64,000 nucleotides of DNA from Nephrocerus scutellatus (taxonomy: Eukaryota > Arthropoda > Insecta > Diptera > Pipunculidae). Shown here piece after piece: positions 20,289 through 64,000 of this stretch (positions are counted from its first letter, which is position 1; each line of letters starts with the position of its first letter). The translations under genes were made by a program, and so were the position numbers. The notes under the pieces are model-generated. The model saw only the letters and a program-made list of their open reading frames with translations. It had not been told where the DNA came from and did no database searches. The stretch is taken from contig OX352763.1 of NCBI GenBank assembly GCA_947095585.1, forward strand, positions 111,331,908-111,395,907. The letters run 5' to 3'.

Positions 20289-21986
20289 TTAATCAGCGGC
20301 GCTAATTATTTCATGATTATGTGACTTCATGTGGGAATATAAACCAGCGTTTTGAGCAAATGACTTCCGACAAATTTTACACTGATATCGTTTCGTTGTT
20401 GCATGCAACTGGGCATGTTGCAATAGTGCCTTCTTGCGTTGAAATGTCGCCTTGCATTCGGAACATTCAAAAGGTCGCTCATTCGTATGCGAAATTGCAT
20501 GATCGCGCAATAATTTTGAATCAAAGAACCGCTTGTCACACAATTCGCACTTGAAACGACGCTCATTGAAGTGACGTCGCTTGTGCGATGCTAAATGTCC
20601 TGAATTTGAGAATTTTTTGCCACAAAGCTCGCAAACGAATGGTTTCTCACCGGTATGCGCCCGCATATGCAATTTCAGTTCAGTGGTCGAATGAAAGGAT
20701 TTTTCACATAGCTGGCAATGATGCGGTTTGATTCCCTTATGTCGCATTACATGCACTTTTAAATTTGACGGATCCGCAAAACAGCTGCCACATATTTCAC
20801 AAGGATATGGCCTGATATTGAGGTGGCGCTTCATATGCATTTCAACATGAACTTTACTTTTGAATGCCTTACCACACAAATGACATATGAAGTCATTGGC
20901 GGGTAATTTATGAGAATTAGAATGACGCTGCATCCCGGACAATGTGGCAAAGCGTTTTCCGCACTCAGGACACTCATATTTCCCTTTTTTTCTGGTAGGG
21001 TTATTCGTGTCATGCCTCTTTTCCTTATTATCCTGCTGGTTTTGTTTTTCATCATCTAATGTTTCGCTAAGATAATCATCACAGTTTTCATCAAAAATGT
21101 CAATACTTTCAATTTCGGTTGGCGTTCGTTTATTAGATGTGGCGGACTTGGTAATTTCATTTTCATCTGTCCCCGAATTATCGAGAACTTCTATATGCAT
21201 TTTAGATATTTCTTCTTCGTATTCAGACAAATCCATTTCAACAAATTCCTCATGATTATCAGGATTGTGATCATCATCATTGTCATCTTCAATAATCTCT
21301 GTTAGATTGAATTGCAAGTAATCCTCTTTGCAAGCGTCAGAGTTTTGGTCACTGTCGCTTTCTGCCTCCACATCTTTCTCGTTTTTTACCTTCAATTCTT
21401 CTCTACTGAAATTTTCTATAAAATCCAACTTTTCGATCTGAAATAAAGTTCCAACAATGATAAATCGATAATTTATTTACTAGGATGTAAAACGAACCTG
21501 CAACACTTCTTCGCTAAGCGGTATCGTATTTGGTTCATCCTTCAGCAGTGGTGACCTTACATCTGTCACTATCTGCGGCGTAGGCACTGGCAACTTCCTT
21601 TTATTTACATTTAATTCCTTTTGGCAAGCCGACATTTTTTTTTCGTCTTGTGAATCCGATGCGCGATACCTCACTTTTTTCATCAAACATTGCATTAATT
21701 GGTCTACGCCGAAATGATCATCATTTATGTAATTCAAATGATCGTACAACACATGACCAAAAAAGTCGGGAATGTTTTCCAATAAAAGACCGCAAAACGT
21801 GCATGTGAAGCAAAACTTTGTATTGTTGGAGAAGATTATTTCGCCACATTTGAGTATGTGCTCCTCGGTATCACCATCGTATGCGTCGTAACGGTACGCT
21901 CCTTCATCAACTTCATCGTCAGCTAAAGACGAATATGTTTCAAAATCTTCATTATATTCCAGTTTTACAACGCCATTGCTAGTCAT
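20289..21986 (-). CDS. C2H2 zinc-finger gene A (two exons)
   Basis: Exons 21498-21986 and 20289-21437 join across a 60-bp GT..AG intron (TTGCAG|GTTCGT ... TTTCAG|ATCGAA), phase 0, giving 545 residues. The N-terminal module is at 45-83: KCGEI, then CTFC and GHVLYDH, an atypical C-x2-C-x12-H-x4-H finger with an extra upstream Cys. An acidic linker (DDNDDDHNPD and similar) follows, then eight C2H2 fingers with HTGEKP-like linkers. The last two are the family's constant pair (ATFQRKKALLQH; SFAQNAGLYSHMKSH). Predicted role: sequence-specific nuclear DNA-binding protein. The first ATG of the open frame was used. No ZAD domain is visible. The Drosophila orthologue is not identified. Confidence 0.88.
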
Positions 21987-22682
21987 TGTCGTTACTATTT
22001 TAAGATGAAATATCTTAGGAGCAAAAATGCGCGTTTATCAACAAATTATTATTTTACTGTCTACTGTGACAGTAGTACTGTCAACTGCCAGTGTGGTGAT
22101 GACGGCTACAGGCCATACAGCAAACGAGACTCGATAAAAACTCTTAACTAAAGGGCGGGCAATCTAATGGTTTGTTTTAAAATCATAGGCTATGGCAACT
22201 TTTTTTACCGATTTTCTTGAAATTTTTATAGCTTTTTTTCCAATCAATTTAATTTTCAAATAAATTTTTTCAGTCCAATTAATTTTTTATTTAATCCCTA
22301 ACGTATATTTAAATTTTTTTTTGTTACATATATGAAGAAAGAATTACCTCCAAATCTATAAAAATAATAATATACAAATGACCATGGTGGTACTCAATAT
22401 ATACACCCTTAATACTATTTTTATTGGGTTTTATCTTACAATATTTTTGATTATTTTTTTTATTATTTGAAATTAAAGTGTAAAAATTAATATGAGAAAC
22501 AAAAATTTCTCTCTATCTCTTTTCTTCTTCTTAATACTAAATAATACTACTTAAAACAACTTAACAATGAAAATTTAATAAAAACAAAAAAAAAACAGAA
22601 AATCCTAATATTATTTCTTCTAGGGCCATCAGTATTTGGTTAAATTTAAGCTTTGAGTGTTTGTACTGTCTTTTTCAGGTAT
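21987..22682. other. Upstream of gene A, then AT-rich spacer
   Basis: The first 130 bp hold the gene A leader and promoter, including CTACTGTGACAGTAG (7-bp palindromic arms) at about 22065-22079 and ACTGTCAACTG just after. The rest is AT-rich and empty. Confidence 0.4.
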
Positions 22683-23345
22683 TTAACTGCAGTATCTCCG
22701 GGACGCATTTCCAATCTGATCAATATTAGGAACATGCCGGATTTTTTTGTCGTTTGCCCTTCTAGCAATATGGTATATTATCGGTATGTTACTCGAGTCT
22801 GATAGATAGCCCATTGCATCCAGATAGAAGAATGCCTCAGGTGGAATATTTCCGCTCATTAAAGTATTTCTGAAGTACTGAGGGTTTGGATAGAATGCTC
22901 CCGAAATAACGTCGTTTTCTACGTCCGCTGACATAGCGAAATGGTTTCTAATAATATCAATAATGACGCTGTCAATTTTTGACAATCCAGATGCATCCAA
23001 AAGTTTTTTGTTTGATATATATTGTCTGTAGTTGGACCGTTCGCTTTTATAGAAACGCATACAAGCTCTAAGGCATTTCTCTCAAAAAACGCAGAATTTT
23101 TCCAAATATGATGGACTTATATTCCACCATATTGGATACCCATGTGTCAAAATTGGTCTAACAAACGCCTGGTAGCAGATGATCTTGACATCACTTCGTA
23201 GACAGCGTGAATAGAAAAGCTTTTTAAGTGACGTAAATGCGGCTCTTTGTCTAATGCGGTATTTACGTGTCCATTATAGCACAGAAAATTGTCCAAATAG
23301 ACACCAAAATATCACACGACAGTTTTTTTTGCGATCGTCAGTCTG
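22683..23345 (-). mobile_element. Non-LTR retrotransposon C-terminal fragment
   Basis: The minus-strand translation reads FGVYLDNFLCYNGHVNTALD, then ATRRLLDQF (decayed AFVRPIL), HMGIQYGG, YMEK-like and FFERNALELVC. An open stretch of 125 codons follows (MRFYKSERSNYRQYISNKKL, FAMSADVENDVISGAFYPNP, IPIIYHIARRANDKKIRHV). This is the region after the RT core of jockey/I-type LINEs. The catalytic core is missing, so the copy is dead, although its last part has stayed open. Confidence 0.75.
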
Positions 23346-23349
23346 ATAT

Positions 23350-24070: not shown

Positions 24071-24554
24071 GGAAGCGACGCAAAAAGTTGACTAACTTTC
24101 AACTTTTCTCTGTCTTAAGGTAGTTTGAAGGTTTTCTAAGCATTTGAAAATGCTCAGCGTGCTTCTTTCAATTTATATGATTTTTAAGCTTAGATGGTTT
24201 GACTGGTAGATAGGTCTTGGGCTCAAATCTCCCTTTGGGTTTAATTTATTAAATTTTTATTTTTTCCAATATCTTTGAAAGTTTCGTGTAAGCTTCACAG
24301 ACCTACTATTCCATATAATTCTAAATTCGTGTACAAATTGACCAGGAACTACTAATTTTGCATTAACTCTTTGAGTACAATTTCACTTACTCATTCTTAT
24401 ACAAATGCCTTTTATATAAATATATTTTTTAAAATCTATGTTATAATAAAACAATTTACAGTAAATATTCTACATCTAAAACCTAAATAATTCACATATA
24501 TATCATAGGCGAAAAGAAGTAATTATAAAAAAATGTATAAAACTAAAAAAATAT
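24071..24554. other. Intergenic DNA downstream of gene B
   Basis: AT-rich. A GGCTCAAATCTC sequence near 24219 weakly resembles a tRNA B box, but no tRNA or SINE could be built around it. The 3' untranslated region of gene B occupies the right-hand part. Confidence 0.35.
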
Positions 24555-26068
24555 TCATCTTAATTTGTTTAAACACTTTGCCGACTCATGTGCCCGCATG
24601 TGCGCATTCAGTCCATTTGATTGTGTAAACCCCTTACCGCAAATTGTACATACGTAGCCTTTTTCGCTTGCATGTGTTTTTTTATGCAGACGCAAAGATT
24701 TTTTACGTTGAAACGTTGCGCCACACTGATCACAAACAAACGGTCGCTCTTTTGTATGTATAACTTTGTGCACATTTAGATCATGGAAACTGTAAAAGGA
24801 TTTTCCACAAACTTCACACTTTGCTGGTCTTTCGCCTGTATGCCGGCGCATATGCGCCCGTAGAACTCCACTGTCGCGACAACGTCGCCCACAAATTTCA
24901 CAAATAACTGGAAATGCTTGCGTATGTCTCAACATGTGAGCATTCAATTCTTTCTCGGTAAAAAAAGTATTCCCACATTCTTTACATTCAAAACTCTTCA
25001 CGCCAGTGTGACGGATTTTATGTCGAGTCAAATTACCGGCCTGAGTAAATTGCTTGCCACAAATGTTACAAAATATTCCTGTATGCTTCCACATATGTCC
25101 TCTCAGATGGCTTTCCATTCGAAACGATTCCCCGCATTCATTGCATTTGTGCGCAAATTTGGAACCTTCTTCTCTTTTAATTGGATTATGTTTCGTTCGT
25201 ATATGATTCTGCAGACTGCTTTTTGATTTATAATGTCGATCACAGTGATCGCAAGCGAATGAAAAATCTTTGTGTGTCTTTTTGGATTTATTTAGCGTAT
25301 TAGGTTTGTCATCGTTTTCGTCCTCCTAGATGAAGATGAAGAAGAAATAATGTTAAAGTGCATATATCTATTAAGAAAGCTTCATATAGGCATATATGAA
25401 AAATTAACGAAATTCCTTTTCAAAGAATTTATTTTTCTCTGGCCCTTCAATCGAAGTGTGGTCGCAATAAATCTTCACACCAATCCTGATTTTGCGTCGA
25501 TGTTATTAGTTTTTGAGTAACTTACATTTGTATAATTTGGTTCAGCCTCGCTTCCCTCCAAGTATTCTAATTCAGATGCATTGTCATCTAATGGCTCTTT
25601 CTTTTCCGTATTGGTTTCATGTTTGCAATCCTTATCACTGACATTTTCATTGATATATTCTTCGATGTCCTTGTTATCACATGTGATAACTGATTCATCG
25701 TTTTCTGATTTAATCCGGCATTGACCTGTATCATTTTCGTTGGCTCTCTTACTTAAATTTTCATTTTCTGACTTATTGCATTTAGTGGTAGATTTTAATG
25801 AGTAATTTTCGTCTTTAGTGTTGCCTTTATATGGGCAGTCAGTGTTATTTGAAATTCTTTCTAGGGGATCCTGAGCTTCTTCAACAAGGCTTGCCAAAGG
25901 ACGATCATCTTCATCTATGAATACACAGCTTTTATCAGACAGGTGCTCATTTTCAAAGTGCGTTAGAAATTCTTGAAATGCAATGCTGGCTTGGCAGAGG
26001 ATGCACGAAATCTCAAACGATGTTGAACTGTTGCAGAATACTTCACCACATTTAAAATTGCAGTACAT
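24555..26068 (-). CDS. C2H2 zinc-finger gene B (two exons)
   Basis: Exons 25526-26068 and 24555-25325 join through a 200-bp intron with a strong donor (ACAAAT|GTAAGT) and acceptor (CATCTAG|GAGGAC), phase 0, giving 437 residues. The module is at residues 6-42 (KCGEVF, CILC, HFENEH), starting almost at the initiator Met. A long acidic, Asn/Lys-rich linker precedes eight C2H2 fingers. The last two are the family pair (ATFQRKKSLRLH; GFTQSNGLNAHMRAH). One finger (ICGRRCRDSGVLRAHMRRH) has Cys in place of the usual Phe. The gene is divergent from gene C; the space between them is largely filled by a transposable element. Likely a nuclear DNA-binding regulator. Confidence 0.88.
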
Positions 26069-26217
26069 AGCTGTTGTGTACTTTTAATGGTACAAAACTT
26101 CGAAAATCCAAAGTTCTTTTAAATTATTATGTTTTAATAGGGAATAACTGTGCTCCCACCGAGCACTTGCACTGTCAGTGTCAATGTCAGTTTTCGACTT
26201 TCGCTGTCGGTCTCGTC

Positions 26218-27277: not shown

Positions 27278-27400
27278 GTCAACTTAATTTTGACACTTCT
27301 GAACGCTCAATCGCAGAGTGAAGATTAAAAATGAAAAAAATACGAGTTTTTTACAGTCATGAAAAAGTAAGAGTATAATACATATCAAGTATCAACAGAA

Positions 27401-28984
27401 ATGTTAAAAGCATTATCTCCTGCAGTTTTAACAAATTTTAAAAATTCAAAATGTGCAGAAATTCACTACGAAGAACCAAAGCTTTTTTCAATAATTTGTG
27501 CGCTGTGTGATGAGATAATATTTAAATTTGATGATTTTCTTCTACATTTTAGTAATGTACATATAGACTCAGTTAAAGATTTAGTTGTAACAGCTCAAAA
27601 TACTGATTTTCTAGAGCATGATATTAAAAAAGAAAACGCTGACAATTTACAAGAGATTAATATTCAAACTGGAAAGGCAGTCGATGAAAGTACAGAATAC
27701 GTGGAAAATCAAAAGAACGAGGATGACGCCTTAAAAGAGATTAAAAACGAAAACGATCCAGAAACATGCATAAAAGCTACAACAAAAGTGGTGGGTCTAA
27801 TAAGATATGTAGTAAAAAAGCAATAATACGTTCTATTTGCAGAGTAGATTTAAAAATTCTTTCTTAGTTTTAGTTTTCATTTCCAAACTATGAGCTAAAG
27901 GCTAAAACATAAATATGCTACGCTTCGGTGATCCACAAGTACGGACGTACGGTTTCACAATGCACACTGGTGATGTGAGGATGTAGAACTACTTTCTTAC
28001 ATGATACTTTTGGACAAAACAGCCATTCTGGTTCTTGATGGAAACAAATAAAATTTCTCAGATATATATCTTATTTTTGCTGTTAATTCCCACTCCATTT
28101 ACACAAACACAAAAAATTCTGTCATTGGAACAATTTGTTCGTGTTTTTGTGTACGGGATTTGTTTAAGCAAAAGGAACAGTTATTATAACTTATTAACAT
28201 CTTAAGATGCTTATCAACTACATCTAAGAATAGTTGAAAAGTTTGCTTTAAACTTAATACCTACCGTTTCCATTTTTTCTTCCTTCTATAGAACGGCGGT
28301 TACAATTATAAATGTGCCCTATGCGATAAACAGTTTAAAAATCAAAAATCACTAAAATGCCACGAAACAATCTTCCACAAACATAATTCTAAGCAACATA
28401 AATGTGAAGAGTGTAAAGTCGAGTTCCGTGACGAACGCCATCTTAAAAGTCACATTTTTAAGCATCATAAAAAGTGGACATGCTCACATTGTGGTAAAAA
28501 TTTGAGCGATGCGAGAGCGTTGCGAATTCACGAAATTCGTCATACTGGTAATCGCCAGCACAAGTGCACATTTGATACTTGCATAAAAACATTTTATACT
28601 GCCAGTGAATTGAAAGCGCATAGTTTTGTGCATACAGATGAAAAGCGAGCTATTTGCGAAATTTGTGGAAAACAAGCTCGATCTGCGGGAGATTTAAAAA
28701 TCCACAAACGCATGCATACCGGAGAAAAGCCATTCGCATGTGAGACTTGTGGGAAACGCTTTGCGAAGAGTTCTGACTTGAAAGAACATACTCCAATGCA
28801 TTCGAGTGAACGCCCACACAAATGTGAGGTTTGTGAGGCAACTTTTTCAAGACTAAAAGCACTAAATCAACACAAAAATTTACACTCAGATGTTAAAAAA
28901 TTTGTTTGTAACATATGTGGTTTAGCATACGCACAGGCAGCAGGATTATCCGGCCATATGCGCTCTCATAAAATGGAGTTATAA
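27401..28984 (+). CDS. C2H2 zinc-finger gene C (two exons)
   Basis: Exon 1 (27401 to about 27790) and exon 2 (28292-28984) join at phase 0 over an intron of about 500 bp. The acceptor CTTCTATAG|AACGGC is clear. The donor could be GTG|GTGGGT or the preceding AAA|GTGGTG, a one-codon uncertainty. The product is about 360 residues. The module at 17-54 reads KCAEIH, CALC, HFSNVH. Then come an acidic linker and eight fingers. The first three are closely packed (KCALC, KCEEC, TCSHC) and one has the CTFDTC spacing. The final fingers ([27 protein letters not shown]) are the family pair. Without splicing the first exon would stop 11 codons later. Confidence 0.85.
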
Positions 28985-30290: not shown

Positions 30291-30325
30291 ATATAAAATG
30301 GTTTCTTATAAAACAAACATGTAAG

Positions 30326-30975: not shown

Positions 30976-31070
30976 GTAAAAGCGTTCTAATAAGCATTCT
31001 GTCTAGCCCTTTAAATAAACATTTTCGAAATGTAATATGCGAATTATTTCGTATTTTCTGTACTGTCAAA

Positions 31071-32145
31071 ATGGTAAAAACCATGCAACAATCAGTTCCA
31101 GTTGGTGTTGGTGGCAATTATCCCAATTTGAAATGTGGGGAGATATATTGTGTGGCTGCTCAAAATTTTATTATTATCTGTGCAATTTGTGACATGAAAA
31201 CCTATGCATTCGAGGATTATGTCTCACATTTTCGTAACAAACATGTTGAATTAATGTCGAATAGCTACGTCAACAAATTTACTACTGACGAGGGCGAGTT
31301 TTTAATAAAATCTAATAATGGAAAATCACTTGATAAACCCAGAGTAAAAGACGACAAAGAGTATACCTATTGGGTTGAAGTCGAATCTGAAGCTGAGAAT
31401 GGCAACGACGAGGTTGTATTAACATGTGTGCAAAAAGTGTAGATATAACCACAATATATTAATTTTTATTTATCTCACTATTTAGAATCAAGATCAATTA
31501 CAATGTTACGAATTATTGGAATATAAAAATGGACAAGAACACAGGGTTGCCAGCGCCATTCAAACATGCGAACTTGATGTAAATGATGTAAACAGTACTT
31601 TTGAAAGTGACATGCCAAAGAGTTTTATAATGAAATGTTCGATTTGTGGAAAAGAATTCACTAAAATAAATTCTTTTAAAAATCACGAACGACGTCATAC
31701 ACATTACCGTCCACACAAATGCAATTATTGTGAAAAAGCTTTTTTTACAACCACAGAACTGGAGTTTCATAGATTAACTCATACAGGAGAAACACGATTT
31801 GTTTGCGAAGAATGTGGAATGAGATATAAAAAAGCATCTACTCTAAAAGAACACAAACGTCGACATACAGGCGTAAAATCTTATTCGTGTAAAGATTGTA
31901 ATAAAAGCTTTTACGAATCGACGCTTCTCAACCGTCACAGAGCAGTTCACTCAAGTGATCGCCCGTTCAAATGTGACGTTTGTCATGCAGCATTTTCTTG
32001 GCGTAAGAATCTTGATACGCACAAGAATTTGCATTCGGATATTAAAAAGTTTGTTTGTAAAATTTGTGGCAATAGATACGCACAACCAGCTGGACTGTAT
32101 TCGCATATGAAGACCCATAAAGTTCGTATCGATATTAGTGTTTGA
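31071..32145 (+). CDS. C2H2 zinc-finger gene D (two exons)
   Basis: Exons 31071-31436 and 31486-32145 join over a 49-bp intron (CAAAAA|GTGTAG ... TATTTAG|AATCAA), phase 0, giving 341 residues. This is the shortest intron of the cluster and has a weak donor; reading through it gives an immediate stop. The module at 21-58 reads KCGEIY, CAIC, HFRNKH. The linker is short and acidic, and there are six fingers ending in the constant pair (AAFSWRKNLDTH; RYAQPAGLYSHMKTH). TACTGTCAAA lies directly before the ATG, so the leader may be very short. A poly(A) signal AATAAA is at 32187. Likely a nuclear DNA-binding factor. Confidence 0.87.
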
Positions 32146-34863: not shown

Positions 34864-36223
34864 ATGGAATCAGAAGTTAGTACTACGAATTTACCCAATG
34901 CAAAATGTGCGGAAATTCATTGTCAAACTTCGACGTGTTTTACTATTTTGTGCACATTTTGTGATCTGAAGACCTTCGAGTTTGATGAGTATGTCCAGCA
35001 TTTTAAAAGGGAACATTTTAAAGAGTTTACCAATAGCTGCAGTAAGACCGAGGAATACCTTTTTGCCGAGGTTAAGAAAGAATCCGACGACTCATCGAGC
35101 ACTGAACTGGAGGATGCAATACAAGATCCATTCGGGACAAATGACAATAAAGTTGAGAATCCAATTGATGTCTTAGAGATTCCCAGGCAACAAAATGTTC
35201 TTAACAACAATGATGAGAAGCGGGATGTAAAATGCAAACCGTATAGTGAATTATGCGGAAACGAGGTAGAGGAGCGGCTAGACCCTGATTGGCAAGCTGG
35301 TAAACTACAAAAGGATTCAGCCCACGAAGATGAAAAGAACGACAATCGGAGTGCTGTAAAAATTATTAAGGAAAAGAGAAAACGATCACGCAAGGTATAT
35401 AATTATTTTAGTTGCTCAAACAAACAAAATAGTAATCGACTGATGTTTGCAATATAATTTTTAGAAGAAAACTATATCTCAACTTGATGATGATAACCTG
35501 CCTATTAGTGCAAAAACGATAAAAGTCGAAATATTTAAATGTGAAACATGTGAAAAAAGGTTCAAAATAAAAAAAGATCTTAGGCGTCATATAAAATTGC
35601 TGCACAAAAGCTCTATGCCGTATAAATGCCATGATTGCGAAGCCGCGTTTTTTGACGAACGACCATTGCAAATACACATTCTTATAGTGCACAAAAACCT
35701 GACGTGTTCAATATGTGCAAAGAAATTTAAAATTTTATATCTATTGGAACAGCATATGCTTCGGCATACTGGAAACCGAAAATTTCAGTGTAAAGTGGAA
35801 AATTGTGGAAAAATGTTTTTTACAAAAAAAGAAGTAGATTATCATAATTTAGTACACACAAAGGAACGACCTTTTGTTTGTGAGGTTTGTGGATGTCGGT
35901 ATCGTACTCATACTCAACTGAAAGTTCATAAACGTGTACACACAGGTGAAAAACCCTACCCATGTGAAAATTGTGGAAAACGCTTTTCAACGAACGCTCT
36001 GCTCAAGGAACACATGCCAATCCATTCGAGCGACCGTCCGCATAAATGTGAGGTTTGTAGTGCGACATTTGCACGGCCAAAAGCGCTCCAGCATCACAAA
36101 AATTTACATTTAGGTGTAAAGAAATATGTATGTAAAATATGCGGAAAAGCATGTGCCCAAGCGGCGGGGCTTGCTGGGCACATGCGAACGCATAATAAAA
36201 TCCCTTTTGCAAATGGTTCTTAA
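34864..36223 (+). CDS. C2H2 zinc-finger gene E (two exons)
   Basis: Exons 34864-35394 and 35465-36223 join over a 70-bp intron (CGCAAG|GTATAT ... TTTTTAG|AAGAAA), phase 0, giving 429 residues. The frame is open a little upstream, but the first ATG encodes MESEVSTTNL. The module at 14-51 reads KCAEIHC, CTFC, HFKREH. The linker is acidic and Ser-rich and ends in a basic RKRSRK. Eight fingers follow, the first three tightly spaced and the fourth with C-x4-C spacing (CKVENC). The constant pair (ATFARPKALQHH; ACAQAAGLAGHMRTH) ends the protein; Cys replaces the aromatic residue in the last finger. It is the closest paralogue of gene F. Confidence 0.9.
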
Positions 36224-38495: not shown

Positions 38496-39853
38496 ATGGA
38501 ACCGAAAGTTAGTGTCACGAATTTTCCAAATGCAAAATGTGCGGAAATTCATTGCCAAACTGCTGCGTGTTTTACGATTTTATGCACCTTTTGTGATATG
38601 AAGACCTTCGAGTTTGATGAGTTTGTCGACCATTTTAAAAGGATACATTTCACCGAGTTAGAAAGAAGCTTCAATAAAACAGATGAATACAATCTTACCG
38701 AGATTAAAAAAGAAGAATCTCATGAGTTGGCCAACAAAGAAGTTGAAGCATTACAAGAACAATTTTGGGCCAATGAGGATGAGATGCCTAATTTTGATAT
38801 TACAATAGATGTGTTGGAGAATGCCCGACCCACATCGGTCAATGACAACGATGAAAAGCGGGATATAAAATGCAAACAGTATTGTGAGCTTAGCGATAAT
38901 GATGATGTGAAAGACAACGTTTCAGACCCCGACTGGCTAGCTAATGAGAATGCATTAAAAAAGGTACCAACGGACGAGGATGCAAACAACGATAATAAAA
39001 GTGCTGTGCAAATTATTGTAAAGGAAAATAGAACCCGATTTCGCAAGGTATTTATTTCTAGTACATACATAGTTGCTCGAGTAAGTTATTATGAGTTTAC
39101 AAACCATTTGTGTTTGTGTTTTTTTTTTAGAAAAAAACAAAATCCCAGCCTGATGATGATAGCCAGTCTGATAGTGAAACGGCGACAAATGATGAAGCCT
39201 TCAAATGTGATACATGTGAAAAAACGTTTAAAACAAAACACACTCTCAGGGCGCACAAAAGTAATTTTCACGCAAAACCGAAAAATATTAAATGTGAAGA
39301 GTGTGACAAAGTGTTTCGAGAGGAAAGCGCTTACAAAGTTCATCTCATAAAACATAGAGGTATAAATTGTGCGACCTGTGGCAAGAAATTCTCATGCAAT
39401 CAGAACTTGAAGCGCCATGAAAAGCGCCACTCTGACATACGGCCATATCCATGTGATCAGTGTCCAAAATCATATGTTACATTGCGCGAACTTAAAGTTC
39501 ATATGATATCGCATTCAGGTACCAAGCCATATGTCTGTGAGGTTTGTGGTGTTACGTTTTTAACCACCACCCATCTGCAAGGACACATGCGGCGACACAC
39601 CGGCGAGAAACCATATGAATGTAAGGACTGTGGAAAGCGATTTTACGTACAATACCAGCTAAAGGATCACATAGCAATGCATTCAAGTGATCGACCGTAC
39701 AAATGTGACATCTGCGGAGCAACATTCTCTCGGCCAAAAGCTCTTAAGCAACATAAACATTTGCACTTGCCGGAGAAAAAATTTAAATGTAAAATTTGTG
39801 ATAAAGCATATGCACAGGCAGCGGGACTGCACTCGCATATGAAATCACATTGA
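38496..39853 (+). CDS. C2H2 zinc-finger gene F (two exons)
   Basis: Exons 38496-39047 and 39131-39853 join over an 83-bp intron (CGCAAG|GTATTT ... TTTTTTAG|AAAAAA), phase 0, giving 424 residues. The first ATG in frame starts MEPKVSVTNF. The module at 14-51 is nearly identical to that of gene E (KCAEIHC, CTFC, HFKRIH). The acidic linker contains NDNDEKRDIKCK, also as in E. Eight fingers follow, ending in the constant pair ([27 protein letters not shown]). The first exon and last fingers match E far better than the middle fingers do. A poly(A) signal AATAAA is at 39875, touching the start of a dispersed repeat. Confidence 0.9.
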
Positions 39854-40294: not shown

Positions 40295-40532
40295 ACCAGA
40301 CACAGCTATTGACCTGGAGGTGCTACAACAACAACTGGTCTATATAAAATACAATTCTAATGATCAGAACAGCGGTAACGCTCAAATTTGCTAAAGGTAT
40401 ACATTTTCTCCGTGTAACGCGGCGGATAGACCGCTTGACTGAAGACAGTTGTATAAGGTGGAAATCAGTCTTCTTTTTTTTGTAATTTTCCAGTAGATCT
40501 CGGTTTTTTGCAATTGAACTGGCACTGGCACA

Positions 40533-40838
40533 TATTTGATTTTCACTTGGAATTTTTGAAATCAACATCTGCTGGCCTAAATGTTATTTTCAATACAGCA
40601 CAGATAAGATAACAACTTACTTTTTTTTTTTATAAGTAACTAAAAAATACTTCTGAAATAGTCCCTTTCACAACTTCAATTGAAATATTTGATTTTCACT
40701 CGAAATTTTTAAATTCAACATCTGCAGACCTAAATGTTGCTTTCAACACAGCACAGATAAGGTGACAACTGACTTTTTTTTATAAGGAACTAAAAAATGC
40801 TTCTTTAATAGTCCCATTCACACCTTTAATCGTAATAA
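40533..40838. repeat. 153-bp tandem duplication
   Basis: Two adjacent units share TATTTGATTTTCACT, CAACATCTGC, CCTAAATGTT, ACAGCACAGATAAG and AACTAAAAAAT, offset by 153 bp. No ORF. Confidence 0.8.
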
Positions 40839-41371: not shown

Positions 41372-42040
41372 TTAACTTAATATGTTATCAGTGACATTAA
41401 TGGCATCGAGAAACACTCCCATCGGTGTTGACGGGCCAAAACTTTCCATTGTGTTAGCGACCTTATTTCGAATATTTCGCAAACGTAACGATGCATGGAC
41501 AAATGTTACTTAAATAAAAGAAAGTCAATAAAAGCGCAAATAATATTACATCCGTGAATACTTACGGGAAAATGGTAGCAATAGCGTAAACGATGACAAA
41601 AGAATAGCCTCAAACCAATATAGCATCAAATAGCCAAAGAGTAGGGAACCTGCTAAAAAGTACCACTTCTGTTGTGAGTTTTCTGCAGCTGCACGAATCG
41701 ACGATGCAGCACGACTTGAAATAAAGCTCGAATTTTTACCGCCGAAAAAATGTAATACAGTCGCAATAAGCATGGCTTGGACAATTAGACCACAGAAAAT
41801 CTTTGTTGGATTCAGTATGGCCATTATCGTATAGATTCCCAAAAACATCAGAAAATAGTTCGATTGATAATAGAGCAAATTTTTGACAACACGATTACCC
41901 CATTTGTCCATATCCTTAAGATTTGGTAATTGAAAACGGGCTGAACCCATAATAAAATCATCTAAACTGCGTAATGGTGGTAACTGCAAATTTTGTGCAG
42001 AAAGCTGCGCACCTACAGATGATGACGAACCTCCAGACAT
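41372..42040 (-). CDS. Jwa: PRA1-family protein, Jwa / ARL6IP5 (PRAF3) homologue (two exons)
   Basis: Exon 1 (41566-42040) ends LLLPFS with donor TTTCCC|GTAAGT. Exon 2 (41372-41508) starts after TTTATTTAAG and continues in frame to [20 protein letters not shown], then [13 protein letters not shown]. The product is 203 residues, 57-bp intron, phase 1. Stopping at the unspliced TAA would lose the conserved tail. The N-terminus has [20 protein letters not shown], then [14 protein letters not shown]. Hydrophobic hairpins at about 62-100 and 127-155 are the PRA1 membrane segments. The family sits in ER/Golgi membranes and influences Rab/Arl trafficking and transporter export. It has no visible link to its zinc-finger neighbours. 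Confidence 0.9.
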
Positions 42041-42299
42041 TGCGTGACGTTGGGTGATTTGTTTGAGGATTCTTATATATTTTTACTTTGGTAAACACTG
42101 ATGTTTCACCTAAGAAGTGAATTTATTAATTTTGTATAAGAAGTACACTGAAGTAAACGTATGTGACTCATACAAAATTTAATGTTACGTACTCCTATCT
42201 CTTACTTTTTTGACTAAACTGTGCAGTATGCAATTGTGCTCATAGCAAAAATTAAATTCCGTAAACTTCACGGTGACATTTGACACAAAACGCGTATGA
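42041..42299. other. Upstream region of Jwa
   Basis: 5' leader and promoter region. It contains GGTGACATTTGACAC at 42270-42284. No TATA box assigned. Confidence 0.35.
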
Positions 42300-45862: not shown

Positions 45863-47129
45863 ATGCTCAAGACAATTCCACCAACGACTAACTGCGGTTG
45901 CGGTTACTTTAAATCGAAATGTGCAGAAATCCATTATCAAACTTCAAGTTTTTCTATTTTGTGCATTTTCTGTGGCTTAAAAACATTGGATTTACATGAC
46001 TTCATCGACCATTTTCATAAAATCCACTTTGAAGATTTCAAAAACTCAATTCAATGTACAAATGAACCGACTGTTTCGCATATTACTGATTCTGGCCCAA
46101 AAGCAAAGAATAGGAATACTCACCATGACCCATTGGAGTTTGGCGATCGTGAAATTGTTGACGATCCCGAAGAACAGATGAAAATATTGAAAGAGGACTG
46201 CGAAAAGCTGGAGGTGAAAAGTTTAAAGCATGAAAAGGAAGAGGATTCCGACGACGATTATTTTGGTGATAAGGACGTAAGCGGAGGATTTGGTCGTAAT
46301 GATACAAATGAAGATGAAGACGATGTTGATGATTTTAAAATGAGCTGCAAAGTTAAACTAGAACCACCGGAAGTAAGTTAACATGAATTGTGTATTTCCT
46401 CGCACATATAATTTAATAATTATGTACCAGGGTAACAGTCCACTTAAAACCAAAAAAGAAAAGGACGACGATGATGATGATGGTGATGACGGTGCAGCTA
46501 ATAGTAATGATGATGGTGAAAAGAATGATTCGTGGCAATGTTCTAAAACTCGGGAGAAAATAAAGCAAACTGTAACACGTAAAGAGCGCAATCAACCACT
46601 CATATGCAGTCATTGTGGGAGAGAATTTAAAAGAAGTTATCAGTTGGCATATCATATGAACATACATACCGGCGCCAAACCGTTTCAATGCGAGGTATGT
46701 GGCAAGCAATTTAAAGCTAGGACCACACTTACGCGACATCTTACAACACACGAAGAAAGACCGGCGTACGTTTGTGAGTTTTGCGACAAACGCTTCACAC
46801 ACAAAGCCGCTATGTTGAGCCATCAGTTACGCCACACACAGGTTCGTTCCTTCAAATGCGATGAATGTGAGAGGCTCTTTTACACTAGCAATCAAGTTGA
46901 AACTCACAAACGGAAAATGCATGCCAGCGATGATGCCTCATTGCCATTTGTCTGCGACATGTGTGGAAAACGTTACCGTACCGCTTCGATGCTTAGTACA
47001 CATCGACACAAGAAACATTTTGCGCACGCTCCATTTTCCTGCGATCGATGTGAGAAGAAATTCATTGATGAGCCACAATTGGAGATACATAAAACTATTC
47101 ATACCGATCAATATACGCTCAATCATTAA
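45863..47129 (+). CDS. C2H2 zinc-finger gene G (two exons)
   Basis: Exons 45863-46372 and 46431-47129 join over a 58-bp intron with a consensus donor (CCGGAA|GTAAGT) and acceptor (GTACCAG|GGTAAC), phase 0, giving 402 residues. The module at 19-55 reads KCAEIHY, CIFC, HFHKIH; here the Phe-to-Cys spacing is one residue shorter. The linker is strongly acidic (DDDDDDGDD). Only six fingers follow, with longer irregular spacers between fingers 4 and 5. The usual closing pair (KAL..H; AQ.AGL..HM) is absent; the last finger reads FIDEPQLEIHKTIH. It is therefore the most divergent A-G member. Likely nuclear and DNA-binding. Confidence 0.88.
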
Positions 47130-48689: not shown

Positions 48690-49345
48690 ATATGCTTGGC
48701 ACAGGGTGGGCGTTAAGGAAAATGAAGAGAAGAGAGGAGATGTCTATGAGCGAATTTGACTCGCCGAAGATGAGCATTGCTTTTCCTTTCTTTGGTTGAT
48801 TGTTTTTCCTTTCCGAAGTTAATCAATGAAAATTATCCCACGTGCATCCCAAAAAACTGACGCCGTGACCTGCAGATGGAAGTGTCTTCACCTTCTTTGG
48901 GGCATATTCTACCCTTTCAGTCTATTGTTTTGTGACTGTTCCTTCGACTCGGGTGTAAAGTGATGGACCCATGTTATATCCATGATTATGAATCGACGCA
49001 AAAACTCGGGTTTATTGCTGTGAAACTTCACAAAACATCTGACTGAAACATCCTCACGATGCTGTTTTTGTTCCATTGTGAGTAATCGCGGCACCCATCT
49101 TGCGTTCAGCTTTCTCATGTCCAATTTGGACCGGCAAAAATGCGATCGATGTTCAGCACTTTTTGAAATGCCTGTAATATCTGCTAGCTCAAGCACTTTC
49201 AGTCGATGGTCTTCCAATACCACCATTTCTGGTGTATTCACCTAACTTGGTCGACCACTGCAATATTCGTCTTGGCATCTCGTACGGCCTCGCTTAAACT
49301 CTGCGACCCAATATTTCATTGTTGTAAACGAAAGAGCAGACTCTA
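48690..49345 (-). pseudogene. Mariner transposase pseudogene, second family
   Basis: The minus strand reads MKYWVAEFKRGRTRCQDEYC, then SGRPS, and after a stop MVVLEDHRLKVLELADITGI. Further on are RKLNARWVPRLLTMEQKQHR, KPEFLRRFIIMDITWVHHFT and PESKEQS. The catalytic block normally reading (V/T)DETW(I/V)HH is MDITWVHH here, so the acidic Glu is lost. A later FLGCTWDNFH matches FWDA(H/R)GI(I/L)F. It is a different mariner lineage from the copy at 3563. It lies against an RTE-like LINE. Confidence 0.85.
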
Positions 49346-50549: not shown

Positions 50550-51434
50550 TTACTCCTCATCGTGCATTTTCATGTGGACATACAAACCGGCATATTGTAC
50601 AAAATCACGGCCACAAATTTGGCAAATGTAATCCTTGACTCCCGTATGGAGTTTCCTATGTTCGGTTAGTGCATTTTTACGTTGAAATTTCATTTCACAC
50701 ATCTCACATGCGTACAATCGCTCATCGGAGTGGCAAATGAGATGCGCTTTGAATGTTTTCACACTTTTAAATCTCTTCGAACAGATATCACATTGGAACT
50801 CTTTGCTCGGAGTATTGTGCACCTTCTTATGAATGGTTAAATATCTTGGCAAGGTGAACTTCTTGCCACAGAATTCACAATGCAAATCTTTTGCAGATTC
50901 ATGAATTTTCTTATGCTTTCGCAATTGTTCGCGACTGAAAAATTCCTGTGCACAAATCTCACACTGGTGCACTATCAAATTGTAGCAGAAATCACATTCA
51001 TTGCGGCACTCCTGTGCATGGCATTTCACATGAAGGACAAGTGAGTTGCGCTGATTGAAAATCTTGTCGCAATGCTGGCATTGTAAAATTTCTTTACTCG
51101 CGTGCGTTTTCATGTGCCGCTGAATTTTATAGCGATGCGAAAATTGCACATGACATTGATCACATTCGAAGCGTTTGGCCACAGTGGCAATACTGATAAT
51201 CGTAGATTTACTAATGGAATGTGTAGTGGAGTTCTTGTTTGTTGGCTTTTGCTCAATGCATATCACATTTTGGTTGAGATCCTTTGTGTTTGTTGTGAAA
51301 TCATTTGTTTCTGGCGGTGGTATTATTGTGATTGCACTGTTGTTTGAAATAACATTTTGAGCTGTTAGACTTTCTGTGTCTAGTGGGAAACTTAAGAGTT
51401 CTTCTAGTATTTGATTGAAATCGATATCTTCATC
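50550..51434 (-). CDS. C2H2 zinc-finger gene H, terminal exon (5' part not found)
   Basis: The open frame runs from an acceptor (TTTCAATTACAG|GATGAAGAT) to the stop and encodes 294 residues in phase 0, as in the other genes. It starts with an acidic/Leu stretch (DEDIDFNQILEELLSFPLD) and a low-complexity linker. Seven standard fingers follow plus one broken one (ECDFCYNLIVH) between fingers 2 and 3. The last two are the family pair (MKFQRKNALTEH; DFVQYAGLYVHMKMH). No exon with the KC[GA]EI module was found upstream on this strand; the DNA there is LINE debris. Either the first exon is distant or it is lost. An internal Met at 51266 could start a shorter protein. Confidence 0.78.
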   Translation of the reverse strand, partial: DEDIDFNQILEELLSFPLDTESLTAQNVISNNSAITIIPPPETNDFTTNTKDLNQNVICIEQKPTNKNSTTHSISKSTIISIATVAKRFECDQCHVQFSHRYKIQRHMKTHASKEILQCQHCDKIFNQRNSLVLHVKCHAQECRNECDFCYNLIVHQCEICAQEFFSREQLRKHKKIHESAKDLHCEFCGKKFTLPRYLTIHKKVHNTPSKEFQCDICSKRFKSVKTFKAHLICHSDERLYACEMCEMKFQRKNALTEHRKLHTGVKDYICQICGRDFVQYAGLYVHMKMHDEE

Positions 51435-54360: not shown

Positions 54361-54376
54361 AGATAACTATAGAATA

Positions 54377-54710
54377 AGTTTGAACGCAATTGGTTCTTAA
54401 ACACATGCGATTTGTAGAAACAATAAAAAAAATTCTTATGGAGACCCTTTGATTCAGGAGTCTGACCACTTTCAAAATATGTCTATTATGTGTTCATTAT
54501 GGTATAAAACCCCTATGCAAAGTTTGAACGCGATCGATTCATAAAAACATGCAATTTGTAAAAACAATAAAAAAATTCGTATGGTGACCCCTTGAATCAA
54601 GAGTCTGACCACTTTCAAAATATGCCTATTTAGTGCCTTTTATGGTAGAAAACCCATATGCAAAGTTAGAACGCGATCGGTTGAAGGGTTTGGCAGTCTA
54701 TACCGGACAT
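54377..54710. repeat. 144-bp tandem repeat, about 2.3 units
   Basis: AGTTTGAACGC(A/G)AT recurs at 54377 and 54521, and diverged (AGTTAGAACGC) at 54664. Units share ACATGC(G/A)ATTTGTA, AACAATAAAAAAATTC, GAGTCTGACCACTTTCAAAA and ATGCAAAG. The block ends CCGGACATACACACATAC and a TATATA run. Confidence 0.85.
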
Positions 54711-55189
54711 ACACACATACAAAGTTTCACTTTTATATATATAGATAATTTGGGAAATGATTCTTCGGTGTATTCTAAGAAAAAATTGTTCTACAGTAAG
54801 GGTATATCTCCAATTTTGACATCATTTATTGGGGATTTAAGAAAAAGCTTACTTTGGTGTACCCTGACCCATGTTAACGGAAATTGCTCTGTTAATACTC
54901 ATAGCAAAAACTTTGTTTATGACTTTATTTTTAGAAGAAAAACTAGCCTGAGTAACTGCTTTTAAATAAAGTTGATATCTTGCTTGAGTCATTAGATATC
55001 CAATTTCTACGCCTGTTTCCGGGCAGAACCAACCTCTGAGCCCATACCAATTTTGTTAAGGTGATGTCGCAAGCCACCATGACCTGTTAGAAAACTCACC
55101 AGCTTCCTTAAGCTATCCCTATTAAAATTAAGCATATCCTTTTAGGAAAAGGGCCTGGTTAATTGCTAAGCCCCGGAACCCTTTCCCAG

Positions 55190-55460
55190 TCGTTTCTGTT
55201 CCCAACAATGTATCAGTGCTGTGGCAGCAGCCAAGTTGACACCACAGTAGGGTTCAGCTCCTATGAACGCGGATTCCGAGGCAGCCCTAGCTAGTTCATC
55301 TGCAGATTCGTTGCCTGCTTTTCCCTGATGGCCAGGGACCAAACCGAGTTTAACTTTGTTGCGTTTGGGAAGAAATTGCAGTGCATCGTAACAGTTTTCG
55401 ACTGTTATTCGGCGACAGCGCTTGAAGTGCTGCCTGGCTATTTGAAAAGATATACATTCT
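55190..55460 (-). mobile_element. LINE RNase H fragment (I-like)
   Basis: The minus strand gives YIFSNSQAALQALSPNN, then GFGLVPGHQGKAGNESADEL-type text split over two frames, then ARAASESAFIGAEPYCGVNL. The catalytic (D)SQAA and PGHQG..NE..D blocks identify RNase H. The last part is the same sequence as at 30840-30975. Confidence 0.78.
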
Positions 55461-57135
55461 AGCGCCTTTAATTACTCATCACCACGTAAGACTGAAAATC
55501 AGATCATTTGTTAATTTGTCAGGGATGAAGTGATACTGATATTGGATTAATATTATATATGCTTATCTATTGGGTTATAATGACTTAACCAGTCTTGAAG
55601 AATAGAAGAATAGAAGAAAGAAAGTGTACTGCAGGTTGTAGTATCTCCTTATATGGGTGCCTGTTCTCCAGTCTCCTAGCATTAGTGGTGATCATATTCT
55701 CTAATGAAAAAGAAAATTTTCATCTTTCGCGTATTAATTCTGGCGTAGGCGGACTCTCCGCATGTGCCATGTGGTAGCAAAATAACGAAAACTTTACAAA
55801 ATATATACGAACCCACCGTATTTGGGATTACACAAAATCTTATACATATTTCAAAGTTTGAAGTAATCTGTCGTTTAAACAAACCTGAATCCGGATTTTA
55901 AACAAAAATAATCGATTGATAAAATCAACTACATATGTACATACATTGAAAATGTTTAAGCTAGTAACTAGATAATAAAGTTCTTTATAGACTTGTTCCC
56001 CGGATAAGCAAGATTTATAAACAAGATTATAGATTTTGATAAAACACGTTACCACATTAAAAAAAATAAATTTTTGAAAACAGAAAAGTCCGATATTAAG
56101 GTAAATAATAATTTACACCAAAAATTCACATCATATATAGGAGAAAAAAGAAACAACACAAGAATTAAATCCAAACAATCCGTAGAATCTGTGTACCATG
56201 GTGTACTTGTGTACCTTCTATCTTCTTACCCTCTCCAATATTGTGACATCATCGTCAATTCCAATCTCATCTTGCCACCAATCGTCAAAACTTAGGCCAT
56301 TTAACATTTTATAACTTTCTAAAATCAGTTGGCGACAGTGGCACTACAGGAATATTTTCTCCTATTGCTTTTTATTTTCTAAATTCTTATACATTAATTT
56401 ATATTGAAAATACATAATTGAATGAAATAATGTACACACAAGTGGACTACGCCGACCGATCATCCAACCAACAAGCAACAACCGACTACACAGCTCGATC
56501 AATCAGCTCAGCATAACACCAACAGAAAAAAGACCCATGCTATGATCAATGACGCTACATGCAGTACAACTACAAGTATATAAACGCTACTTTAAATTCC
56601 CCCACAATAAAATAATTAGAAATACTTATTGAAAATGCTTAACTTGCATACCTCTTTGTGGCTGATTGAATTAATTTCTATTTGAAATCCAACCTAACTG
56701 AAGTTAAATGGACAATTGGGCGATTTTAAGAATAGAAAACACATAATTTTAGAACATATGGTTTTTGTTTATTATTTTCTGGTGCATTACATATATTATG
56801 TGTTTATATATTATGCCGGTACAGTAGGGTAAAATTACAAATCACCTGTTACCTGTTAGTGAAAGACGTGGATGCCCAACAGACGTTCCCAAAAAGGAAA
56901 AGCAAGTACATATACTAATGTACATAAATGAACTTTCATATGATTGGTGCCTGTGATTTTCACAAGCCAGTAAAACTTGCATAACAGTTGTAAGGTTTTG
57001 TTTAGTTGTCAACAAATTTGGCGTCTATAGAGTGGTTTTTAAAACGTTTTTATTAGCTCGCGTTCGTGTATGTTTGGCAGTGCGGGTGGAATATTGTAAT
57101 TGATTTTAAACTAATGGAGAACTTAGACTATAGCC
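55461..57135. other. Intergenic DNA, no gene recognised
   Basis: AT-rich. A stretch at 56430-56640 has GTATATAAACGC (TATA-like) and later CACAATAAAATAATT, and might be an old LTR, but no paired copy or primer site was found. Confidence 0.4.
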
Positions 57136-57725: not shown

Positions 57726-58340
57726 ACGAAACTGAAGCGCATAGACATTTGAAATAAAGCATTAGTTTTATTCTAGTACAAAAAGAACATTTCGAATAAG
57801 TAAAAAACTGACAAAACTAGGAATAAAATCTATAGAAAATATAAAAAAAACATGTTGTGTCAAATTTGGAATGTTTGGAATATTCTGAATGAATTAAAAC
57901 TTGTGGGTGTATGAGTGTACACGTATATGAAGTAAAACTTCTTCAGGTTATATATCATTGTATTTTTACGAATGGTACGAACAAACCAAAAATAGTCCTA
58001 CATACCGAATTTCATACAAATCGCTTGAGAAATTACGAAATTGAAGCGCATCGACATTTGAAATAAAGCATTAGTTTTATTCTAGTACAAAAAGAACATT
58101 CCGAATAAGTAAAAAACTGACAAAACTAGGAATACAATATATAGAAAATATAAAAAAAACATGTTGTGTCAAATTTGGAATGTTTGGAATATTCTGAATG
58201 AATTTTGTGAAATTTGTGGGTGTATGAGTGTACACGTATATGAAATAAAACTTCTTTAGGGTATATGTCATTGTATTTTTACGAATGGTACGAACAAGGC
58301 AAAAATACCGAATTTCATACAAACCGCTTGAGAAATTACT
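57726..58340. repeat. 309-bp tandem duplication
   Basis: Two adjacent copies, offset 309 bp, share GAAGCGCAT.GACATTTGAA, TTAGTTTTATTCTAGTACAA, AAACATGTTGTGTCAAATTT, GTGTATGAGTGTACACGTAT and CGCTTGAGAAATTAC. Identity is about 95 percent by eye. No ORF is conserved. Confidence 0.9.
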
Positions 58341-60944: not shown

Positions 60945-61385
60945 TAGTGGTGGTGGGTCTTGAGGTGATGGGGCCTTCAGGTGGGTTTAGAGGGGGTTTT
61001 TTGAGGGTTTTTAGTGGGATGTTTATTGCCTTTATGTGTTTTTGAGTGCGTCTAGAGATGATGGTAAAGTGGTTACTTGAGGCGGTCTTTATGGTGGTAT
61101 TGGTGGTTATTTAAGGGGTTTGAAGAGAGTCTTTAGATTGTCTTTATGGGTTTTTGTAGAGGTTGGAGGAGAGATAACGTAGTCTTGAGGGAGTTCTGAG
61201 TGGATCTTCAGACGGTCTTAAGGAGATATTGAGGAGTTCTTGCGGGGGTTTGTCTCAATGGGGGTTTGAAATGGTCATAATTACGGGTTTTCCAGAAGTC
61301 TTAATGGAATCTTGAGTGGGGTTTAGGAAGGTTTGACAGGGTCTTGAGTCCTAATAGGGTGTTGTGAGGGTCTTAAGGGAATATT
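60945..61385. repeat. G/T-rich strand-asymmetric minisatellite
   Basis: For about 440 bp the plus strand has very few C residues and many G-runs. Degenerate units such as GGGTCTTGAGG, GGGGTTTTTTGAGGG, GGGTTTTTAGTGGG, GGGTCTTGAGTCC and GTGAGGGTCTTAAGGG recur every 15-25 bases. No ORF. Confidence 0.75.
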
Positions 61386-61682
61386 TACTGTTATTAATAT
61401 TTGGAATTTACTTTTATTAATATTTAAAGAAGAGAATTTATATGTTTCTATATTTGTGCCGCAAAGTAATAGTTTCTCATAAGAATAATATAAAGTAGCT
61501 GCGAGAAGACAGAAGTTATCGCGATCAGTTTTGTGTGGATAATTATTACATATGTATTACGGTCTTCGGAATGGTTTAAAAATAAAATTATATTTTTATT
61601 TTTACTATACTATTTTAGGGGGCGTGGTAAAGGTCGAAAATAGCATAAAACGCTATAATGCATATTTGCGGCATTGTTTTTT

Positions 61683-62105
61683 TTAAATTCTCTATATTAA
61701 CTTCGCGTGCCCGTGTGTTTCTGTCTGGCTGGCGAACCAAATCTTGTGATCAATTTTTAAGAAGTGGGTTTTATTCAAACTTTGCACATATGAGTAAATC
61801 CCATGATAACACTTTCTATTCAAATTTCAAATCTGCGGCTCCCATACAAATATTTTACAAAATTTAACCGATTTTTTTAAAATTTTATATGCATGTAAAT
61901 CACCGATGGACATAAAAATTTGGAAGTGATCGGTCCCGGGGTCTTGGGGCACCCATACAAATTTTATAAAAAATACCTGATTTTCTTCAAACTTTATACG
62001 CATGTGTATTTTCGATGGACAACACTTTTTGTAAAAATTTGTTAGCAACCGGGCCCTGGTATCTAGGAGAACATACATTTTAATTTTTATGGGCTGTTTT
62101 TTTAG
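61683..62105 (-). repeat. AACAACCCAT-family dispersed repeat, copy 8
   Basis: Starts AAATTCTCTATATTAACTTC, then GCGTGCCCGTGTG, GTCTGGCTGGCG and TCTTGTGATCAATTTTTAA. It carries two GCATGTGTATTTTCGATGGA/GCATGTAAATCACCGATGGA units, and ends AATTTTTATGGGCTGTTTTT. Complete copy. Confidence 0.85.
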
Positions 62106-62504
62106 TTATATGTTCAAAATCACAATATATAATTTTTCAATAATACGATATTTATTTTTTATTAATATTTTACATATTAATTTATTCAAATTAAAAAGAT
62201 GAATACAATCATCAATTAGTTCGCAAACTTTTTTATTTATTCTGGCAACTTTATGTACTAAATTTTATGACATTTCGTAAGGGACCCAAATCAATTGCAG
62301 TTTGTTGTCGTTTGTAGTTGAGACAGCAAGCCGCTGTCACTTTAAATGTTTTTTATATGGAAGTTTTTTCAAAATTAATAATAAAAACAGTAATGAAGTT
62401 TGGATTTTTTGTGAAAAAAGACGTATAAAATTATGCTATCGTTACATTTTAATAGAGAAAGAATTATTTTATTGTGCATATTAATATGAGTATCAAGCGG
62501 CAAG
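62106..62504. other. Upstream region of zinc-finger gene I
   Basis: Leader and promoter region. TATGACATTTCG is at 62267 and CGCTGTCACTTT at 62332. No decisive promoter element. Confidence 0.35.
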
Positions 62505-64000
62505 ATGAGCGCAATAGAACCGATTGTGGAAATTAAAACAGAATCTTCTGATTGTTTTGCTGCCACAAATAATGGCGAGCCGCGACATCATAAAGAAAAA
62601 ACTTCTTATGACAGTGTGGAAGATGTCGAGAGTGCAAGTGCCTACAAAAATATAGAGGAGGAGAATCACCTTCAAAGACACCGAGTATTTGGGGCTCGAT
62701 GTGGTGAAATTTTTGTTACAAAAAATGCTAGAAAGTGGACATTCATTTGCACGTTCTGTGATAAGATAACAACAGAAATTGAAGACTTTATCTTTCACAT
62801 AAAACAGGCACACATCCAATTGGCAACTGAGGAACTTGGTGGTGACCAGGAAACCGAAGATGAAGATGATGAGAATGAACATACAAATTACATTACTGCA
62901 GGCTATCATCACAATTTGGAAGTTTTTCCCTTTCCAATTAAAATAAAAAATGAAGTTCCTACGAATTTTACAAATTTGAATTATCCAAGTAACAAAGGAG
63001 CGTCAAACGAGGTGGGTTTAGCTGAGTGAATTTTGGAATATTTTGCTTCCAACTAATGTAGGTTTATTTTTATTTACTTTGAAATTCAATTGATTACATT
63101 ATGTGTTCTATTGTTTATTGATTACTTTCTCTCATTATCATATAATAATTAACTTACCAGAGTAAGGATTTATTTTTACTTCATCATCTCACTTAACAGA
63201 AATTTGTATTGATTTGTATTCTTGGCTTATACGATTTGTTCCATTTAAAGAAAAAGTACATTTTTGAAAGAAAATTGTAAATTTCATCTTAGCTTCTATC
63301 ACTAAGTGTTAAATATATATAATAGTAATCATTAAAATTTAGTAATGGACAACTTTTTCGCAGTTTCTCGACTACAACAGTTACTTGGACGTAAAAGTTC
63401 ACACGCACCCCGAATCGATATACAACAATGAATCCAATAATGATAAATACGATGGCGAAATTTCACCGAATGAAAAAAATTCCATTTGGAGAAATCCTTT
63501 TGCATTGCATGAGTCAAGTGAGGAAGACGACGACGACCACGATAACAGTAATGGCAATGAAGAATCTCAAATAAAATCAGAAAAACTTACATCAGATGAC
63601 GACCAGCATGATTATGACGGGGTAAGTGAAAATAATGAGGATCAGTTCGAAGAAATTCGCCCCGATGATGATTACTCTAAGCAGCACATAAACAAACTGC
63701 CGCCCGTTGCATCAGATGCTGCAACAATACAGCCATCATTAGCGACATCGCAAAGAAGAAGTCACAGAAGACGTAACATACGGTTACGACGTACGCAAAT
63801 ACGTGGGCCCGTCTATTGTGCCCTTTGCAATCGAACATTCCAATACTATTCGCTTTATAGAAATCACATGATCAAACATACAAATGAAACTCCATTCAAA
63901 TGTCCGCAATGTAGTAAAGGTTTTAAATCTAAACAAGCCATTAGATATCATATGAGCACACACCAGCGAGATAAGGCGTTCAAGTGTACAATTTGCGAGA
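62505..64000 (+). CDS. C2H2 zinc-finger gene I (cut by the window end)
   Basis: Exon 1 (62505-63011) ends AACGAG|GTGGGT. Exon 2 starts after CTTTTTCGCAG at 63364 and stays open, phase 0, to the window edge (intron 352 bp; 381 residues so far). The module is at 65-103 (RCGEIF, CTFC, HIKQAH), preceded by a 64-residue acidic extension that the other genes lack. Exon 2 codes an acidic Asp/Asn-rich linker (SSEEDDDDHDNSNGNEE), a basic patch (RRSHRRRNIRLRRTQ), then fingers CALCNRTFQYYSLYRNHMIK and CPQCSKGFKSKQAIRYH, with a third beginning at CTICE. A consensus GTAAGT occurs inside exon 2 at 63621 and could allow alternative splicing. Likely a nuclear DNA-binding factor. Confidence 0.88.

Follow-up and report, generated by a model that had tools for sequence, protein, structure and literature searches.

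The 64,000-nucleotide stretch of the Nephrocerus scutellatus (Diptera; Pipunculidae) genome analyzed here, called the window throughout, spans C3:111331908-111395907 of a 613-Mb genome in nine contigs (C3 being OX352763.1) and carries a cluster of nine C2H2 zinc finger genes, A to I. An earlier reading of the same DNA, hereafter the original prediction, had attributed a common N-terminal Cys/His module to eight of these genes (A to G and I), and a six-frame scan confirmed it in all eight. The present study concerns this module, which is homologous to the N-terminal domain of the Drosophila protein IMZF and is multiplied in the fly genome.

A cluster of nine C2H2 genes, eight with a common N-terminal module

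Each module-bearing gene is predicted to comprise a first exon with the module and a second exon with the finger array (window coordinates hereafter unless a contig is named). On the reverse strand, gene A has its first exon at 21498..21986 (-), with the module at 21738-21851, and its second exon, encoding the acidic linker and eight fingers, at 20289..21437 (-); gene B follows with exons at 25526..26068 (-) (module at 25943-26053) and 24555..25325 (-) (eight fingers). Five genes then lie on the forward strand: gene C at 27401..27790 (+) (module at 27449-27562, donor uncertain) and 28292..28984 (+) (eight fingers); gene D at 31071..31436 (+) (module at 31131-31244, exon end at 31412 or 31436) and 31486..32145 (+) (six fingers); gene E at 34864..35394 (+) (module at 34903-35016) and 35465..36223 (+) (eight fingers); gene F at 38496..39047 (+) (module at 38535-38648) and 39131..39853 (+) (eight fingers); and gene G at 45863..46372 (+) (module at 45917-46027) and 46431..47129 (+) (six fingers). 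Gene H, at 50550..51434 (-), is a finger array for which no module exon was found. Gene I has exons at 62505..63011 (+) (module at 62697-62813) and 63364..64000 (+), the latter ending at the window edge with two fingers inside the window; followed past this edge (locus L019), its array has at least five fingers in one frame. Net charge ranges from -7 to -31 in the linkers and from +8 to +27 in the finger arrays.

The pattern [KR]C[GA]E[IV]...C..C...H...H gave eight matches across the six reading frames of the full 64 kb, all at the predicted places, and none in 200 mononucleotide-shuffled windows. Among the 2107 open frames of at least 20 aa in the window, a profile trained on these same eight modules matched the eight at E <= 5.1e-21, the next best match being at 0.027, and no ninth module was found in the window by either scan. 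The predicted signature is correct in outline and needs three adjustments: the KC[GA]E(I/V) lead holds for genes A to G and reads RCGE in gene I; the spacing given as C-x2-C-x11/12-H-x4-H is x12 in seven of the eight modules and x11 in gene B; and the genes "start with" the motif only loosely, modules A and I beginning 45 and 64 residues past the first Met. The alignment of the eight modules has six invariant columns (C10, E12, C25, C28, H41, and H46), and identity between modules is 17 to 48%, except for the E/F pair at 77%.

A phase-0 intron in the linker and the status of gene H

The phase-0 intron announced in the linker holds up in all eight genes, in each of which the sequence offers a workable donor/acceptor pair. 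Intron lengths would be 60 bp (A), 200 bp (B), 501 bp (C), 70 bp (E), 83 bp (F), 58 bp (G), and 352 bp (I). Two or more candidate donors are present in genes C and D, and those of gene D would give an intron of 49 bp (donor AAA|GTGTAG) or 73 bp (donor GAG|GTTGTA, read by eye), the latter of which we prefer. By eye again, GAG|GTA phase-0 donors are seen at four module loci outside the window (L015, L017, L024, and L025) and phase-0 acceptors at three (L015, L017, and L024).

As predicted, gene H has the phase-0 acceptor, AATTACAG|GATGAA, and no module lies between this acceptor and the window end. A C-terminal signature finger, C-x2-C...Q-x-[AN]-G-L-x2-H-M, closes seven of the nine arrays (A to F and H); gene G lacks it, and the array of gene I is cut by the window end. 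Because its array ends with this finger common to A to F, gene H is a family paralogue without visible first exon. A second H-like gene lies at C3:111430571-111431326 (-), in L033, with a seven-finger array, a family-like last finger, and no module found nearby.

The module is related to Drosophila IMZF

None of the eight module exons passed a Pfam cut-off; weak listings (DUF629 at a best E value of 0.0017, Actin_micro, and others) were under the cut-off and were dismissed. NCBIfam gave nothing close to its cut-off for the five exons searched, and a protein-database search with residues 10-80 of gene D returned no candidate. The module had been said to be neither a ZAD nor a BTB domain, and rightly so: neither PF07776 (ZAD) nor Pfam BTB had a match at E <= 1 in the nine proteins, and the conserved ligands are those of a C2H2 finger.

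Against the PDB, the module profile found one convincing chain, 9vcd (E = 7.5e-11; next PDB sequence, 0.034), whose entry is titled "N-terminal dimeric C2H2-domain ... IMZF". As for named domains, against which the original prediction had proposed to set a hidden Markov model of the module, Pfam gives none known from many insects, and the named Drosophila protein IMZF, which might be CG18262, has the module. As single queries, seven of the eight genes reached 9vcd at E <= 1 and six at E < 0.01, with whole first exons for D (5.6e-8) and F (5.5e-4) and with modules for B (1.5e-5), E (9.4e-4), C (0.0048), G (0.0064), and A (0.031); for the gene I module, 9vcd was not listed at E <= 1. Like the cluster modules, 9vcd has a leading RCGEV followed by C-x2-C, x11, and H-x4-H and, going by the entry title, an N-terminal position in a C2H2 protein, and 18 of 48 aligned residues are identical to D and 16 of 48 to B. 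AlphaFold2 models of modules D and A (predicted local distance difference test scores of 84 and 82) consist of two strands and a helix, and Foldseek searches with these models ranked 9vcd first for D and third for A.

In the reverse direction, the IMZF module used as genome-wide query had its best match in gene B (7.9e-5), then in gene D (2.7e-4). Gene B also groups with IMZF in a 26-row tree (93/84, the node not being starred and the branches being long), and it is the likeliest counterpart of IMZF in this genome. An assignment of the cluster to D. melanogaster CG10366/CG10431/CG10462 was dropped, CG10431 being described in excerpts of PMC9810180 as bearing THAP and ZAD domains. Searches of open-licence papers in PubMed Central brought up no account of such a module family or of the 9vcd structure.

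The original prediction had seen in the module an atypical finger preceded by a Cys and had suggested dimerization as one possible role. This guess is supported by the solved homologue, since the only convincing solved relative, 9vcd, is titled a dimeric C2H2 domain, and we infer by homology that the present members may pair likewise.

The module differs from an ordinary DNA-binding finger

The module could alternatively be a further DNA- or RNA-binding finger set off by a long linker, a reading to which the full C2H2 ligand set lends itself. Foldseek and VIA-align rows listed finger structures of Tramtrack and Kaiso, which resemble the module in fold outline; these entries are DNA-binding domains, with only 8-20% sequence identity to the module in those rows. 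Two more observations weigh on the same side: Pfam zf-C2H2_4 (PF13894) is listed for one of the eight modules (E = 0.0026), and IMZF itself, aligned by eye, has G at helix position 3. PF00096 is listed for one of the eight modules (E = 0.07), and among the eight whole exons, C2H2 Pfam models appear only for gene I, under the cut-off.

Compared with the 61 array fingers of the cluster, the modules depart from DNA-reading fingers at the base-contact positions and in the core. Helix position 3 is acidic in 8/8 modules versus 10/61 array fingers (Fisher p 5e-6) and helix position 2 in 5/8 versus 1/61 (p 3e-5), while an aromatic residue at C2+4 is found in 0/8 modules versus 57/61 array fingers. 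Moreover, the IMZF domain is recognized by the module profile (44.7 bits on the 9vcd fragment) but not by a profile of the 61 ordinary fingers (-1.0 bit). We consider the module as probably not a DNA finger, and the further-finger explanation as very improbable.

Expansion of the module in the genome

Genome searches in which the D, I, and IMZF modules served as queries gave at least 25 modules, a count to be taken as a lower bound, with 23 on C3:110.34-112.07 Mb and a single one on each of C4 and C5; L022, with an internal stop and an E value of 0.09, was excluded from it. The family had been proposed to be lineage-expanded, and this number of copies supports it. In the two 100-kb flanks of the window, over 20 of 20 stretches at domain E < 0.01, modules occur only in L017 and L015, which have seven-finger arrays and are ~29 and 37 kb away from the window. 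Three modules lie at C3:110.34-110.35 Mb (L023-L025), and twelve further modules score 23-44 bits on the module profile. A subfamily reading KCGL, RCGF, KCGI, or KCAL instead of KCGE is found at L053-L059 (C3:111.98-112.07 Mb) and at L060 (C4:73.3 Mb). By comparison, 9vcd represents one Drosophila protein, whereas this genome has at least 25 modules, including a subfamily without the Glu of KCxE.

Across the 25 host modules, C-x2-C and the first His are present in 25/25 and the last His in 24/25. The preceding Cys is present in 24/25, with Y in L023; since the other four ligands already make up a full site, this residue would more plausibly serve structure or an interface than bind zinc.

Divergence on this scale could also mean that the IMZF fold is retained while the paralogues mainly bind another protein, such as a common co-regulator, or selected paralogues, self-pairing having been lost or become selective. 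The identity of only 17 to 48% between most cluster modules could provide partner specificity, module I does not reach 9vcd, and the KCGL/RCGF/KCGI/KCAL subfamily is diverged. Nevertheless, almost all of the 25 modules retain the zinc ligands and the leading C[GA], and the only relative with a solved structure is described as a dimer. We regard binding of other partners as unlikely, although it deserves more weight than any other alternative to a pairing module.

A close parallel is with the ZAD (zf-AD), a well-described insect N-terminal pairing domain whose family has grown by lineage-specific duplication, according to excerpts of PMC9810180. As described there, ZAD families such as the cucoid clade have, like the present cluster, an N-terminal zinc module followed by a finger array, tandem clusters, common intron positions, and suspected gene conversion, and the ZAD module is able to dimerize. 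The same excerpts define the ZAD by four cysteines, whereas the cluster module is of C2H2 type, has another sequence, and lies apart in the genome: of the 86 places listed for PF07776, none falls within C3:110.34-112.07 Mb.

The module exon and the finger array of genes E and F

Genes E and F are 77% identical in the module versus 48% in the array. At identical residues (M and W excluded), they use the same codon at 39/47 positions in the first 66 residues versus 55/106 in the array, a contrast with a permutation p of 0.00015 for this one gene pair. By identity, the E array is closest to the C array and the E module to the F module. In the array tree, C and E come together (80/84), but the approximately unbiased (AU) test does not reject E+F for the arrays (p 0.139). 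For the modules, AU tests reject neither E+F (p 0.361) nor C+E (p 0.124), and E and F are not paired in the best tree. Since the trees do not settle the question, it is the codon comparison that suggests that, once the arrays of E and F had split, gene conversion or exon exchange may have homogenized their 5' exon.

The 5' end of gene B inside a retrotransposon

A 410-bp stretch of gene B (25773..26182 (-)), comprising 114 bp 5' of the ATG and 98 codons, is repeated at 13 other places on C1-C5 with 93-95% identity. Twelve matches span 408-411 bp (L006-L014, L016, L018, and L021) and one spans 244 bp (C2:35968239-35968482). The left side was compared in 11 copies (all but L007 and the 244-bp one), and in these the fragment lies ~500 bp inside a longer shared stretch. 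This stretch begins with TGTAAC in 10/11, L008 being without the first bases; before this start, four copies (L011, L012, L014, and L016) have the same sequence and seven have differing flanks. Among the long copies are three same-orientation pairs with mates 8-11 kb from each other, and the 244-bp copy belongs to a fourth pair. Between the mates of two of the pairs, RT_RNaseH and Integrase_H2C2 domains lie on the same strand as the captured frame, as does an aspartyl protease in one of the two; over the fragment, the identity between mates is 98.5, 98.5, and 95.9%. This layout is that of a long terminal repeat (LTR) retrotransposon carrying the gene B fragment in both LTRs; from the order of its domains, we take the element to be Ty3/gypsy-like. 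In several copies, tandem repeats of ~115 bp, deduced from offset matches, appear to adjoin the captured fragment.

The second Cys is lost in all 12 long copies (G in 11, V in one), stops are present in 3/12, and the mean nonsynonymous divergence between copies (dN) is 0.032, the synonymous one (dS) being 0.042 (64 usable of 66 pairs); for these reasons, the captured fragment fits a passenger free of selection on the protein. Since all copies examined share 14 fixed differences from gene B, capture probably happened once.

The opposite direction, in which gene B would have acquired its first exon from the LTR, could draw on the fact that sharing is limited to 410 bp with ends coinciding to within 2 bases in 12/12 copies (3-kb loci compared). 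However, the module of gene B is one of a host family of 25, whose exon phase it shares where readable, and it has a Drosophila relative; its four ligands are intact where the LTR copies have lost the second Cys; and the rest of the LTR does not flank gene B, since the match at this locus is confined to the 410 bp. Acquisition from the LTR is hence highly unlikely, and we retain capture of the gene B 5' end by the element. The captured end, which comes from a gene resembling an immune regulator and sits in sense orientation in a mobile Ty3/gypsy-like LTR, could conceivably be functional, either through antisense small RNAs against the element that would also hit gene B (~94% identity over 410 bp) or through a 5' flank feeding host control into the LTR. 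Such a function seems to us rather improbable; if true, it would link a family of dimerizing regulators to a retroelement through RNA or promoters.

Other features of the window

A PRA1-family gene (PF03208, E = 5.7e-24) lies within the cluster between F and G, at 41546-42082 (-). Upstream of the cluster are a TRAF-type RING/MATH gene at 18489-19877 (+) and a phospholipase A2-like gene at 7855-8580 (+). The window also holds an RNase H fragment at 55166-55471 (-), a DUF6451 fragment at 15398-16015 (-), and, at 48909-49241 (-), a frame without Pfam match that resembles a mariner transposase. Direct tandem duplications of ~310, 160, and 155 bp with 85-91% identity are located at 57726-58339, 54376-54679, and 40532-40837. 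No Rfam family reached the gathering threshold in the window, and no tRNA was found in it.

Proposed model and significance

The analysis itself establishes the type of module, its exon layout, the predicted fold, the sequence homology to IMZF, and the expansion in the genome. We propose, as the likely explanation, that the cluster encodes tandemly duplicated, probably DNA-binding regulators, each combining an IMZF-type pairing module, an acidic linker, and a finger array, in most cases of six to eight fingers. In this model, the N-terminal C2H2 module would pair two protein chains, and the flexible acidic linker would join it to the DNA-reading array. Pairing would thereby put two arrays side by side, allowing bivalent DNA binding or the joining of two sites, an outcome resembling that of ZAD proteins, which use another domain. 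Because the module has its own phase-0 exon, it could have been kept, lost (gene H), or homogenized (E/F) independently of the fingers. Zhou et al. (2024), as cited in excerpts of PMC11855015 and PMC11978451, describe IMZF as a Relish-mediated C2H2 protein inhibiting Imd/Tak1 transcription. We infer that the present members may bind DNA targets and have a regulatory and immune role.

Altogether, a different, C2H2-based module appears to expand in one fly lineage in the manner of the ZAD, and the module profile would allow grouping of insect zinc finger genes. Moreover, the LTR capture of the gene B first exon may provide a natural test of the cross talk between retroelements and host regulators.

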